A stretch of DNA of 64,000 nt. It comes from Lachnospiraceae bacterium. Lineage in GTDB: Bacteria; Bacillota; Clostridia; Lachnospirales; Lachnospiraceae. The notes under the pieces are model-generated. The model did no database searches, was not told the DNA's origin, and saw only the letters and a program-made list of their open reading frames with translations. Where the stretch lies: assembly GCA_017526745.1 (NCBI GenBank), contig JAFXQX010000024.1:62001-126000 (forward strand). The letters are read 5' to 3'. A program made the position numbers and the translations under genes. Positions 51,278-55,924 of this stretch are shown here, piece after piece. Numbering within the stretch: the stretch's first letter is position 1; each line of letters starts with the position of its first letter.

Positions 51278-51315
51278 TCAAAAAGAGTTACGGGTCATCC
51301 CGTAACTCTTTTTGA
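51278..51315. terminator. Strong bidirectional terminator
   Basis: A perfect 17-pair stem (TCAAAAAGAGTTACGGG at 51,278-51,294 and its complement at 51,299-51,315) with a TCAT loop. It has an A run on one side and a T run on the other, and separates mecA from the convergent DUF1858 gene. Confidence 0.9.
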
Positions 51316-51334
51316 TATAGATGCCGTATGTTCT

Positions 51335-51526
51335 TTATCCAAGGGCAGCGATCTTTCCCATAAGATCATCGATGTTCATGCCGTGAACCATGGCAGCCTG
51401 TTCGAGGGATTCACCCTGGGATGCGGGGCATCCGAGACAATGCATTCCCATCTCCATAAGGATCGGTGCTACTTCGGGTTTATTGACGAGGATCTCGCCG
51501 ATAGTCATATCTTTTGTTATCTCCAT
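51335..51526 (-). CDS. DUF1858 hybrid-cluster-associated redox domain protein
   Basis: A 63-residue minus-strand protein with [34 protein letters not shown], of which the CLGC pair is the redox motif. Such DUF1858 domains occur alone or in larger redox proteins and are thought to bind a disulfide or a cluster. It is convergent to mecA and divergent from the pyruvate formate-lyase operon, sharing the intergenic region. Expression may respond to redox state, but no regulator is shown. Confidence 0.82.
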
Positions 51527-51633
51527 TATATCTTCCTCCGCTGTTTGCTTTGTGTATTGTTACCTGAAACGCTGTTAGGTTAGCACCCTTTAAGGCACAA
51601 GTCAAGCAGGCAAAAAGCACCCGTGATCTGTAT

Positions 51634-51663
51634 GTTGTGGTCGCGGATGACTTATGCCACAAC
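51634..51663. repeat. Inverted repeat between DUF1858 and pfl genes
   Basis: GTTGTGG (51,634-51,640) and CCACAAC (51,657-51,663) form a seven-base inverted repeat 70 bases before the -35 box of pflB. It could be an operator of a redox or sugar regulator. It does not match the usual Rex consensus. Confidence 0.35.
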
Positions 51664-51732
51664 GTGTTGTCACGTAGTCATTTTGCCTAGAAAAATCAAC
51701 GATTTGTACGGAAAAAAATACAGATATCAGCC

Positions 51733-51762
51733 TTGACGTGTATACAATCCTCAAACTATAAT
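51733..51762 (+). promoter_or_regulatory. Predicted promoter of the pyruvate formate-lyase operon
   Basis: TTGACG (51,733-51,738) and TATAAT (51,757-51,762) are 18 bases apart, 75 bases before pflB. Confidence 0.6.
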
Positions 51763-51838
51763 AACAATTACCAAAAGAAGAAGTCCGCTTGGCGGATTTA
51801 TAAATCAATCTAACAAAATCAAAACAGGAGGCGTTGCA

Positions 51839-53878
51839 ATGAGATCAGAATGGAATGGTTTCGTAGGCGGTAAGTGGGAAAACGAAGTTAACGTACGTGA
51901 CTTCATCCAGAAGAACTATACTCCTTATGACGGAGATGATTCTTTCCTTGCAGGACCTACACAGAACACAAAAGACTTGTGGAAGATGGTACTTGACCTT
52001 CAGAAGCAGGAAAGAGAGAACGGTGGTGTTCTCGATATGGATACAAAGGTTATATCCACTATCACATCACACGGCCCCGGCTACCTTGACAAGAGCAAGG
52101 AGAAAATCGTAGGTTTCCAGACGGATAAGCCTTTCAAGCGTTCACTTCAGCCTTACGGCGGTATCCGTATGGCAGAGAAGGCCTGTTCGGACAACGGTTA
52201 CGAAGTTGATCCCGAGATCAGCGAATTCTTCTCAACACATCGTAAGACTCACAATGCCGGATGTTTTGACGCATACAATCAGGAGATGAGGGCTTGCCGT
52301 ACATCTCATATAATCACAGGTCTTCCGGATGCATACGGAAGAGGACGTATCATCGGTGACTACAGAAGAGTTGCTCTTTACGGTATCGATTACCTTATAG
52401 AGGACAAGCAGGCTCAGAAGGATTCAACGGGACGTGTCATGACAGATGATGTTATCCGTCTTCGTGAAGAGCTTTCAGAGCAGATGATAGCTTTAAAGCT
52501 CATGAAGGAAATGGCTGCTTCATACGGTTGCGACATCAGCAAGCCCGCAACAAACGTTCAGGAAGCTATCCAGGCTACATACTTCGGATACCTTTGCGCG
52601 GTTAAGGAGCAGAACGGTGCAGCAATGTCTCTCGGACGTACATCAACATTCATCGACTGCTACGCAGAGCGTGACCTCAAGAACGGAACATTTACAGAGG
52701 AGCAGATCCAGGAGTTCATTGACCACTTTATCATGAAGCTTCGTTGCGTTAAGTTCGCACGTACTCCCGAGTACAACCAGATATTCGCCGGCGATCCCGT
52801 ATGGGTTACCGAGTCTATCGGCGGTATCGGCGTTGACGGACGTCATATGGTTACAAAGTCTTCATTCAGATATCTTCATACACTTGAGAACCTCGGTGCA
52901 GCTCCCGAGCCCAACCTTACGGTTCTGTGGTCAACAAGACTTCCCCAGAACTTCAAGAAGTTCTGTGCGAAGACATCGATCAACACATCCTCGATCCAGT
53001 ACGAGAATGATGATCTTATGAGACCTGTTCACGGTGATGATTACGGTATCGCTTGCTGTGTATCTTCGATGGTAATCGGTAAGGAAATGCAGTTCTTCGG
53101 AGCTCGTGCAAACCTTGCAAAGTGCCTTCTGTACGCTCTCAACGGTGGTATCGATGAGAAGACCAAGAAGCAGGTTGGACCGAAGTATCGTCCTTACGAC
53201 GGAGATGTTCTTGACTACGATAAGGTTATGGAACTCTTCCTTGACATGGTTGAGTGGCAGGCTGACGTATATGTCAACACACTTAACATCATTCACTACA
53301 TGCATGACAAGTACTGCTATGAGAGAGCAGAGATGGCTCTTCATGACAAAGACGTTAAGAGATATTTCGCAACAGGTATCGCAGGTCTGTCGATCGTTGC
53401 CGATTCCTTCTCAGCTATGAAGTACGCTAAGGTTGAGTGTATCAGGGATGAGGACGGTATCATCACAGACTTCAAGATCACCGGCGACTTCCCGAAATAC
53501 GGTAACGATGATGACAGAGTTGATGCTATCGCTACGGAAGTAGTTCATAAGTTCATGACAGCTATCAGACGTCATCATACATACAGGAACGGTATTCCTA
53601 CAACTTCGATCCTTACCATCACTTCAAACGTTACATACGGTAAGGCAACAGGTAACACACCTGACGGACGTAGGGCAGGACAGCCGTTCGCACCCGGTGC
53701 TAACCCGATGCACGGCCGTGATACTCACGGTGCTATCGCATCGCTTTCATCTGTAGCCAAGCTTCCGTTCAAGGATGCTCAGGATGGTATCTCAAATACC
53801 TTCACGATCATCCCAGGCGCTCTGGGCAAGGAAGATCAGGTATTTGCAGGTGATATAGAGCTGGATCTTAATAAATAA
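51839..53878 (+). CDS. pflB: Pyruvate formate-lyase catalytic part lacking the glycyl-radical domain
   Basis: The 679-residue protein matches PflB from the start ([20 protein letters not shown]) to the end of the ten-stranded barrel. The adjacent catalytic cysteines, Cys406-Cys407 in IACCVSSM, are present, as are [12 protein letters not shown] and [17 protein letters not shown]. It ends [20 protein letters not shown], exactly at the linker before the glycyl-radical domain of usual 750-residue enzymes. The stop is followed by new ribosome-binding sites, so it is a genuine shorter gene, not a simple frameshift. Codon use is strongly biased, implying high expression. It needs a partner supplying the glycyl radical (see 54,224). 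Confidence 0.93.
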
Positions 53879-53906
53879 AGTTGAGACATAGCAGGAGGTG
53901 ACATTT

Positions 53907-54101
53907 ATGGATCAGATCGATGATCTTGTAGCTTATCTTGACGGTTCCGTCGAGGCCGGAGTCGGACATCTGAATGTAGATGTCGATGAGGCGCAGAAAG
54001 AGATGAGAAGTACGGAAACAATGGGCTGTACCGACTGCTCAAGGACACCGCTGGCATGCAGCGTGCCCACGCTTCATCAGGGCCTGGATGACTACAGATA
54101 G
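53907..54101 (+). CDS. Cys-containing paralogue of the glycyl-domain N-terminus
   Basis: The ATG at 53,907 has AGGAGGTGAC nine bases upstream and encodes 64 residues. Residues 3-30 (IDDLVAYLDGSVEAGVGHLN) align with residues 8-30 of the glycyl-radical protein downstream. The second half is different: CTDC and a third cysteine (Cys41, 44, 51) replace the RVSGYA radical loop. So it cannot carry the radical. It may occupy the same docking groove on PflB as a placeholder, bind a metal, or regulate the split enzyme; this is inference. It lies between the two parts of the enzyme in the same transcript. Confidence 0.72.
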   Translation: MDQIDDLVAYLDGSVEAGVGHLNVDVDEAQKEMRSTETMGCTDCSRTPLACSVPTLHQGLDDYR

Positions 54102-54102
54102 G

Positions 54103-54187
54103 AGGGGCCCATCGAAGATGGGAAGAACCTGTCTGTATGTGGAGCCCCTATCGCCGAAGGCGATTCTTATGGGCGACACACCTACAG
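54103..54187 (+). ncRNA. Structured intercistronic RNA element
   Basis: AGGGGC (54,103-54,108) pairs with GCCCCT (54,144-54,149). Inside or beside this are CCCATC-GAA-GATGGG (54,108-54,122) and ATCGCC-GAA-GGCGAT (54,150-54,164). CTGTA-TGTG (54,133-54,141) is complementary to CACA-TACAG at 54,177-54,187, a possible pseudoknot. GCCC can alternatively pair with GGGC at 54,171-54,174, giving two competing folds. It precedes the glycyl-domain gene and may set its expression or processing. Confidence 0.5.
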
Positions 54188-54223
54188 TATAGTTAAGAAT
54201 AAAATTATAAGGAGGGAAAAATT

Positions 54224-54466
54224 ATGGCAGCAAATAAGGCACAGGTTGATAACCTTGTTAATCTTCTGGACGGATATGCAACAAAAGGTGGACATCACCT
54301 TAACGTAAACGTTCTTAACAGAGAAACTCTTCTTGATGCTCAGAAGCATCCGGAGAACTATCCCCAGCTTACTATCCGTGTAAGCGGATATGCAGTAAAC
54401 TTCATCAAGCTTACACCGGAACAGCAGGCGGATGTTATCTCAAGAACATTCCACGAGGCTATCTGA
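54224..54466 (+). CDS. Stand-alone glycyl-radical domain of pyruvate formate-lyase
   Basis: The 80-residue protein is the missing C-terminus of Pfl[37 protein letters not shown] (radical site Gly55 in RVSGY) and [17 protein letters not shown]. An AAGGAGGG site precedes its ATG, so it is made as a separate polypeptide. It resembles the GrcA/YfiD spare-part protein that repairs oxygen-cleaved PflB, but here the main enzyme has no domain of its own, so it should be an obligate subunit. The activase gene follows. A hairpin lies 16 bases after the stop. Confidence 0.92.
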
Positions 54467-54481
54467 TCAGGTGATCTTTTG

Positions 54482-54510
54482 CGAGCCCGAAACTGATTGT
54501 TTCGGGCTCG
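54482..54510 (+). terminator. Hairpin between the glycyl-domain gene and pflA
   Basis: CGAGCCCGAAAC (54,482-54,493) and its complement (54,499-54,510) form a 12-pair stem. Only a weak T run follows, so it may partly terminate and lower pflA expression relative to the enzyme parts. Confidence 0.65.
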
Positions 54511-54534
54511 TATGTCATTTTACGGAGGAGACAA

Positions 54535-55302
54535 ATGACGAAAGGCCGTATACATTCTCTTGAAAGCTTCGGCACCGTTGACGGACCGGGTACAAGATAT
54601 GTCGTGTTCGTACAGGGGTGTCCCATGAGATGCCTTTACTGTCATAACCCTGATACATGGGCGATGACGGGCGGCGAGGAGATGGACCCCGAATATATAT
54701 TTGAGCAGTATCAGCATAATGAGGCGTTCTACAAAAACGGCGGAGGGATAACCGTTACCGGAGGTGAGCCGCTCATGCAGGTTGATTTTCTGATCGACCT
54801 GTTTTCGATATGCAAGGAACACGGGGTTCATACGTGCATAGATTCATCGGGCATAGCATACCGTCCGGAGAATAAACCTTTTATCGAAAAACTTGACCGT
54901 CTCATGGAACTGACCGATCTAGTGATGCTCGATATCAAGCATATCGATCCGCAGATGCACAAAAAGATCACAGGCCAGCCAAATGACGGTATCCTGGCCT
55001 TTGCACAGTATCTGTCCGAAAAGGGAGTGGATACGTGGATAAGGCACGTTATCGTGCCCGGACTTACGGATGACGATAAGTACCTGTACGATCTCGGTTA
55101 TTTTATCGGGGGACTGTCATCGCTTAAGGCGCTTGATGCACTCCCTTATCATACGATGGGAAAACCCAAATATGAAAAGCTCGGGATGGAGTATCCTCTC
55201 GGCGACACGCCTCCTATGGACAAGAAGGATCTTGTCGCCAAGAAACAGAAGATACTCGACGGTATAAAGGCAAGAAGAGCGGATGACGGCAAAAAGTCTT
55301 AA
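54535..55302 (+). CDS. pflA: Pyruvate formate-lyase activating enzyme
   Basis: A 255-residue radical SAM enzyme with the motif QGCPMRCLYCHNPDTW (three cysteines) and GGITVTGGEPLMQ. It generates the glycyl radical on Gly55 of the separate domain. Length and order are normal (PflA lacks the two ferredoxin-like clusters of other activases). It is the last gene of the split pfl operon and overlaps maf by 20 bases. GGAGGAGAC precedes the ATG. Confidence 0.95.
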   Translation: MTKGRIHSLESFGTVDGPGTRYVVFVQGCPMRCLYCHNPDTWAMTGGEEMDPEYIFEQYQHNEAFYKNGGGITVTGGEPLMQVDFLIDLFSICKEHGVHTCIDSSGIAYRPENKPFIEKLDRLMELTDLVMLDIKHIDPQMHKKITGQPNDGILAFAQYLSEKGVDTWIRHVIVPGLTDDDKYLYDLGYFIGGLSSLKALDALPYHTMGKPKYEKLGMEYPLGDTPPMDKKDLVAKKQKILDGIKARRADDGKKS

Positions 55303-55924
55303 CGAACAATTCAGGATAGTGCTCGCTTCCGCCTCCCCCAGACGTTCGGAGATATTGAATCTTGCCGGACTGTCATTTGATGTGTGGCCTTCCGACAAGG
55401 AAGAGACGACAACAAAGACCGATCCGGGACAGATCTGCTGTGAACTTGCCCGCACGAAGGCACTTGACGTCGCATCATCCATTAAGACTTACGGCAAAAA
55501 TCATCCCGATATAACGACAGAATCGGATACCATAGTCATCGGAGCGGATACTATCGTCGCAAAGGGTGACCGGATATTCGGAAAACCAAAGGATGAGGAT
55601 GATGCCGCTAGGATGCTGAGGGAACTTTCCGGTGTAACACACAGTGTGTATACCGGAGTCTGCCTTGTTTTCATGAGTTCGGACGGAAGAGTCGGAGAGC
55701 ATACTTTTTTCGAAGAGACGAAGGTGACTTTCTATCCGGTTGACGAAGATGAGATAGCGGAATACATCGGAAGGGAAGATGTTCTGGACAAAGCGGGCGC
55801 ATACGGCATACAGGCGGGTGCTGCGTCGTTCGTAAAAGGCATAGACGGTGATTTTTTCAACGTTGTGGGACTGCCTCTTTCCAGAATGATGCACGAGATC
55901 TCAAAACTTCTTTCAGACGGATGA
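55283..55924 (+). CDS. maf: Maf-like nucleotide pyrophosphatase
   Basis: The 213-residue protein begins IVLASASPRRSEIL, the Maf signature, and has GADTIVAKGDRIFGKP in the middle and DKAGAYGIQAGAASFVKGI near the end. It hydrolyses non-canonical nucleoside triphosphates and is also tied to septation. It starts inside the end of pflA, so translation is coupled though the functions differ. Confidence 0.93.
   Translation: MTAKSLNEQFRIVLASASPRRSEILNLAGLSFDVWPSDKEETTTKTDPGQICCELARTKALDVASSIKTYGKNHPDITTESDTIVIGADTIVAKGDRIFGKPKDEDDAARMLRELSGVTHSVYTGVCLVFMSSDGRVGEHTFFEETKVTFYPVDEDEIAEYIGREDVLDKAGAYGIQAGAASFVKGIDGDFFNVVGLPLSRMMHEISKLLSDG

Follow-up and report, generated by a model that had tools for sequence, protein, structure and literature searches.

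A split pyruvate formate-lyase and the small cysteine module that accompanies it in Lachnospiraceae

The pfl locus of the window

The window, a 64,000-nucleotide stretch of DNA from a Lachnospiraceae bacterium, carries a pyruvate formate-lyase (PFL) locus in which the enzyme is divided between two polypeptides. The gene pflB (51839..53878, forward strand) starts with ATG at 51839, stops with TAA at 53876-53878, and encodes a split PFL catalytic subunit of 679 aa that breaks off at the linker leading to the glycyl-radical domain but retains the catalytic pair Cys406-Cys407 in the motif GIACCVSSM. The protein scored 1106.6 bits against TIGR01255, above the curated cut-off of 994.2, with the match covering profile positions 2-665 of 744 and the radical domain lying outside this polypeptide; the Gly_radical profile (PF01228) matched over its positions 1-51 only. 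In the alignment with E. coli PFL, PflB residues 3-669 correspond to 9-681, which places the break near E. coli residue 681, some 53 residues ahead of Gly734. The radical domain is encoded by grcA3 (54224..54466, forward strand), a separate glycyl-radical subunit of 80 aa with Gly55 in RVSGYA, which has its ATG at 54224, its stop at 54466, and AAGGAGG upstream. This small protein scored 162.2 bits against NF038360 (GrcA3), above the cut-off of 158, and 101.7 bits against TIGR04365 (YfiD/GrcA), below the cut-off of 170. Since GrcA3 residues 7-79 align to E. coli PFL 681-758, the two polypeptides together amount to one PFL. Further downstream, pflA (54535..55302, forward strand) encodes the radical SAM activase (TIGR02493, 291.6 bits, cut-off 231.75). 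An earlier note on this DNA had described, with the right coordinates, the PflB that ends at the linker, its cysteine pair and stop, and the separate 80-residue RVSGY gene with its own ribosome-binding site. It had also seen no intact enzyme, while allowing that a full-length pflB might lie elsewhere in the genome; none was found, as the genome (2.6 Mb, 99.86% complete) holds no second match to the PFL-like profile (PF02901) or to PF01228.

The earlier note treated the locus as a two-part system and missed a third element within 53,879-54,223, which bears a cysteine motif and is of a kind that accompanies nearly all split PFLs. In the window this element is gene X (53907..54101, forward strand; 64 aa), which has its ATG at 53907, its stop at 54099-54101, and its own AGGAGG. 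The N-terminal half of X resembles the docking segment of GrcA3 (profile comparison, E 2.1e-6, probability 89%, 29 columns), and the C-terminal half, residues 38-63, reads TMGCTDCSRTPLACSVPTLHQGLDDY, a sequence that is invariant in 19 genus loci and brings the Cys count of the genus X to three. A separate GrcA3 is present in 21 genus loci, of which these 19 make up the alignment A1; the other two are without X, one having no pflB in the stretch (L016) and one lying at a contig start (L028). The dN/dS ratio of X relative to the window was 0.01-0.08 for six genus relatives and 0 for a seventh (dS 0.05), and among eight genus sequences all 326 of 326 pairwise base differences in codons 37-63 fell at third positions. 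On this substitution pattern X is a real gene under strong purifying selection, and the codon-position test rules out a random ORF.

The X of the window gave no Pfam match at E 0.1 and came over no NCBIfam cut-off; its score against NF038360 was 20.9 bits, compared with the cut-off of 158, over profile positions 4-29. In the family scan of the X alignment A3, for which cut-offs were known for the first member only, 16 of 22 members matched NF038360 (best E 2.7e-5), and the other matches were single ones at E 0.01 or weaker. The R-V-S-G-Y loop is absent from both A1 and A3, and a profile of X returned no significant chain from the PDB. A viral or plasmid origin of X was rejected (23 pattern matches included zero relatives, and a further search gave no match). 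The reading as a RiPP-like peptide was set aside by reasoning, since the presumed core is invariant, not variable, and the N-terminal half is GrcA3-like.

Among the non-coding features, a candidate sigma-70-like promoter, TTGACG-18-TATAAT, lies upstream of pflB (51733..51762, forward strand) and agrees with the consensus at 11 of 12 positions; the region contains 3 sites of this kind against 5.5 expected by chance, which leaves this one a candidate only. The intergenic segment between X and grcA3 (54102..54223, forward strand) has the character of a structured RNA, with a fold energy z-score of -3.5 for 54099-54223, and this fold perhaps sets the ratio of X to GrcA3. A known RNA element was rejected, as 51300-55400 gave no Rfam match up to E 1. 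A terminator-like hairpin of 14 pairs follows grcA3 (54480..54512, forward strand). Directly upstream of pflB, and divergent from it, the minus strand at 51335-51526 encodes a DUF1858 protein (PF08984, 90.5 bits) with a CLGCP motif, which is possibly a thiol or redox partner.

Distribution of the split enzyme and of the cysteine module

The earlier note had proposed looking through Lachnospiraceae for PflB proteins that end at this linker. Searching 250 sampled family genomes with NF038360, and counting as a separate GrcA3 an open frame of up to 160 aa, we found a separate glycyl-radical domain in 96; G218 and G240, with cut and frame-broken intact PFL, stand outside this number. An intact PFL beside the split one was found with TIGR01255 in three of these 96 genomes (G121, G155 and G168), at a threshold of E 1e-150, which could overlook an intact gene divided between contigs. 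The proposal that the small protein is an obligate subunit is thus strengthened by the 93 split genomes in which no intact PFL was found and by the conservation of both catalytic parts: R-x-SGYA is kept in 111 of 111 split loci, and the catalytic Cys-Cys in all 107 that cover that site. Nor is the split special to the window genome, since a class-wide sample contained at least 19 of 341 genomes with a separate GrcA3, distributed over nine family codes, eight of them beyond the family itself; separate copies come first in the ranking by score, and 19 is therefore probably the complete number. Four of the 19 (G000, G058, G216 and G233) were already in the family sample; the other 15 were fetched, and one of these (G536) also holds an intact PFL. 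The frequency in the family, the 93 genomes without a detected intact enzyme and the spread through the class together indicate that the split is a stable, widespread form. One split pflB, in L251 (G486), has an extra in-frame TAA inside the coding region.

Gene X was detected in 64 of the 250 family genomes at E 1.3e-8 or better and in 78 at E 1e-3; those of the weaker matches that were inspected proved to be GrcA3 itself or members of a small-protein family ending in YHHGRCDVGSP. X is present in 63 of the 96 split genomes versus 1 of the 154 others (G042, 67% complete). In a collection of named genomes with one genome per species, 512 places matched X. Among the best 80 of these, ranked by likeness to the window X and with a few sharing one genome, a split pflB was present in 80 and grcA3 in 79, the remaining place ending at a contig edge. 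The titles of these 80 were Lachnospiraceae or genera within it, except for one 'uncultured bacterium'; most are MAGs, and Kineothrix alysoides KNHs209, Lachnospiraceae bacterium YSD2013 and strain 526-35 are among them.

The 111 split loci that were fetched (96 from the family and 15 from the class; L098, L108 and L127, without PFL, are not counted) fall largely into two mutually exclusive forms. In 67 loci X adjoins pflB, and 66 of these have grcA3 on the other side of X; PflB in the 67 has a tail with a median length of 16 aa, and zero Cys in all 67 cases. In 39 loci without X the tail has a median length of 35 aa and contains 2-4 Cys (two in 28 of the 39), so that a Cys tail is found in 39 of the 44 split loci that lack an adjacent X. 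The five loci with neither form are L246, L253, L255, L258 and L269, and the genome of L269 has an X elsewhere (L108); the remaining four show that the cysteine module is not a strict requirement. Counted by sample, the 96 family genomes comprise 62 with adjacent X, 1 with X elsewhere, 32 with a tail and 1 with neither, and the 15 class genomes comprise 5, 7 and 3 with X, tail and neither, respectively.

A profile comparison of X with 12 of the 39 tails, which were picked for their clear motif, gave E 2.7e-10 and a probability of 97%, and by this measure the clear-motif tails are homologous to X. A strict Cys motif, framed after the data had been seen, occurs in 62 of 67 X proteins and 21 of 39 tails and is absent from all 722 control C-termini; the looser motif [AS]C..P occurs in 65 X proteins and 34 tails. 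Forms such as DCACCEPN, found among the 18 tails that fail the strict motif, may be unrelated. Many diverged X proteins lack the first Cys and keep two only, so the chemistry may differ between lineages. With 106 of the 111 loci having one of two exclusive forms, and with the motif moving between gene and tail, the pattern is best read as one function performed in trans or in cis.

The history of these states was followed on a tree of the PflB core, built without the tail columns, in which two X loci (L045 and L052) cover about 12% of columns and the intact PFLs are the best-scoring 30 loci, which do not form a fair sample. The best tree requires at least 13 changes of the X and tail states, and with starred branches alone the X label must still change 6 times; an independent-pairs test on the starred branches gave p 0.125, the pairs being too few for significance. 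The split PFLs, except for L255, were grouped with 97% support, and six intact PFLs lie inside that clade. In one of these, L082 (G132), the Cys-rich linker VTCGCEEVTCAV stands between the core and the radical domain, and this protein is perhaps a re-fused Cys-tailed form. Holding the split rows other than L255 together against the 30 intact PFLs was not rejected (AU p 0.122), and for this reason the tree suggests, but does not show, a return from the split to the intact form.

Possible roles of the cysteine module

Like E. coli PFL and the TIGR01255 family, the enzyme of the window has the same catalytic core, the Cys-Cys pair and an adjacent PflA; it differs in that the last ~80 residues, with the radical glycine, form a separate protein, and in the addition of the cysteine module. 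The spare parts YfiD/GrcA and T4 Y06I (TIGR04365, and GrcA2, NF008341) have the same glycyl-radical domain as GrcA3. Residues 67-126 of GrcA (PDB 6owr) align to GrcA3 20-79, and while YfiD aligns from GrcA3 residue 20 only, GrcA3 retains the helix that precedes the tenth strand and is without the 60-residue disordered N-terminus of YfiD. According to PMC8683613, YfiD is taken to provide the tenth strand of the barrel together with the radical loop, and with E. coli PFL cut at 695 it gives a fully active complex once activated. YfiD is described there as repairing intact PFL after oxygen cleavage, whereas no intact PFL was found in the genome of the window.

With its catalytic residues kept and no other PFL found, the pair of PflB and GrcA3 would be the working enzyme. 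PflB would carry the barrel and the catalytic Cys pair, and GrcA3, which PflA would activate, would contribute the glycyl-radical loop along with the docking helix and the tenth strand of the barrel, and might be swapped after oxygen cleavage. For the cysteine module we give about even chances to a role as a thiol plug or gate that serves, in cis or in trans, the open radical-domain site of an obligately split PFL. The split would leave this site on PflB open, and the small module would attend it. Acting in trans, X would dock where GrcA3 docks, as its likeness to the docking helix and strand of GrcA3 suggests, with the Cys motif replacing the radical loop; in other lineages the like motif, fused as a C-terminal tail, would enter this site from the end of PflB itself. 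We infer that the module would compete with GrcA3, using its thiols to hold an empty or damaged site and, depending on the redox state, either yielding to GrcA3 or quenching the radical. More tentatively, X may be a decoy of the radical subunit, in which the same docking arm presents a Cys motif in place of the glycyl loop; radical and resting cartridges would then be interchangeable, the resting one having been repeatedly fused and freed.

A thiol plug or off-switch is our first choice, and its main rival is a recruiter of GrcA3 or PflA. As such an assembly factor, X or the tail would substitute for the YfiD-recognition element at residues 696-733 of E. coli PFL and bring in GrcA3 (or PflA) with no plugging. 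Although we think it unlikely, this explanation agrees with the position of X between pflB and grcA3, and it draws on PMC8683613, in which truncating E. coli PFL at 695 leaves its binding to YfiD immeasurably weak and its activation 32-fold lower; a naturally cut PflB would accordingly need some substitute for the element. However, GrcA3 keeps the helix that YfiD lacks, which may suffice, and it is this same segment of GrcA3 that X resembles, which points to competition, not recruitment.

It is less probable still that the Cys motif binds a metal, either Zn or an Fe-S cluster, and that X is a small regulatory subunit comparable to those of other glycyl radical enzymes. Benzylsuccinate synthase and 4-hydroxyphenylacetate decarboxylase have small Cys-bearing accessory subunits, and in both the radical glycine stays in the large subunit. 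X resembles these subunits by description, as a small Cys-bearing partner, the comparison having been made through the PDB profile search only. Several conserved cysteines, three in the genus X and up to four in the tails, would suit metal binding, but many diverged X proteins and most tails have two, which are few for a cluster held by one chain, and the PDB search returned no significant chain.

That GrcA3 is merely a spare part, with the enzyme working via another route or another PFL, seems very improbable to us. The NCBI name of NF038360, 'autonomous glycyl radical cofactor GrcA3', implies as much, and three split genomes do hold an intact PFL, but the neighbourhood of the gene shows an obligate subunit, and no other PFL was matched in the window's own genome or found in the other 93 split ones. 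The possibility raised by the earlier note that the stop is an assembly error, or more generally that a frameshift or a stop has made a pseudogene of a normal pflB, has nothing behind it except the stop itself and is ruled out, as the same break recurs in genus relatives and throughout the 96 split family genomes, followed in dozens of genomes by genes with their own starts and AGGAGG-like sites.

PFL is central to fermentation and a standard example of an oxygen-labile protein radical. In a large family of gut and rumen bacteria an emergency spare part appears to have become the normal subunit, and the split PFL offers a natural system for testing the contacts that seat the radical domain; in E. 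coli the comparable cut leaves a PFL that pairs badly with YfiD. The cysteine module is a testable candidate for guarding or switching off the radical site, and X, conserved and encoded next to a gene of central metabolism, comes over no Pfam or NCBIfam cut-off. The radical subunit had already been named GrcA3 by NCBI, and we regard X together with its fused form as the new part. By title or abstract, neither a split PFL nor X turned up among the papers listed in a search whose coverage excluded most subscription papers and all preprints, and the accessible parts of PMC7478625, PMC9403272, PMC12288474 and PMC4149025 do not describe a split PFL.

Related structures, additional grcA3 copies and other small proteins

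The closest solved relatives of PflB are PDB 38la and 38lb (formate acetyltransferase), neither of which is among the 34 PDB sequences matched by GrcA3 at E 0.001. The first ends at LGKED, much like the natural L255, and the second extends to ...FGECDMC and 42 more residues, with a tail beginning ECDMC, as a Cys-tailed split PflB might. In length and sequence both look like natural split PFLs, and since these structures exist the split itself may be known to others.

A second separate GrcA3 is listed in 15 of the 96 split family genomes. G121 would be a sixteenth with two GrcA3 matches, but one of them sits within its intact PFL and was not counted. All 15 second loci were fetched, as stretches of 3.7-6.7 kb; 14 are without any PFL gene, and one (L270), at a contig end, adjoins an activase gene. 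Such copies fit an exchange of radical subunits, and exchangeability is plausible from their arrangement. Neighbouring genes were listed for five orphan grcA3 loci, and in two of these (L273:3938-4591 and L277:3556-4215, both on the minus strand) a Crp/Fnr-type regulator is encoded close upstream of grcA3, and the spare copy may there be under redox or stress control.

The gene order is pflB-grcA3-X, not pflB-X-grcA3, in L177 / L029 and in L242, and in L108 (G038) and L098 (G042) the stretch that was fetched contains an X gene but no pfl gene. A second small protein, of ~65-70 aa, has an X/GrcA3-like N-terminal half but ends in another conserved sequence, YHHGRCDVGSP(W/F)xKG, and the stretches fetched around it contain no PFL. 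It is encoded at L127:3260-3454 (forward strand), by the L282 ORF 3387-3602 (forward strand) and by the L283 ORF 3196-3399 (reversed strand); the L127 protein, the one member scanned, gave no match at E 0.01 in either Pfam or NCBIfam. In a phage collection, 1539 of 50,697 records match GrcA3 at E 1e-8, mostly from enterobacterial phages and at 60-80% identity, and these are presumably T4-type spare parts.
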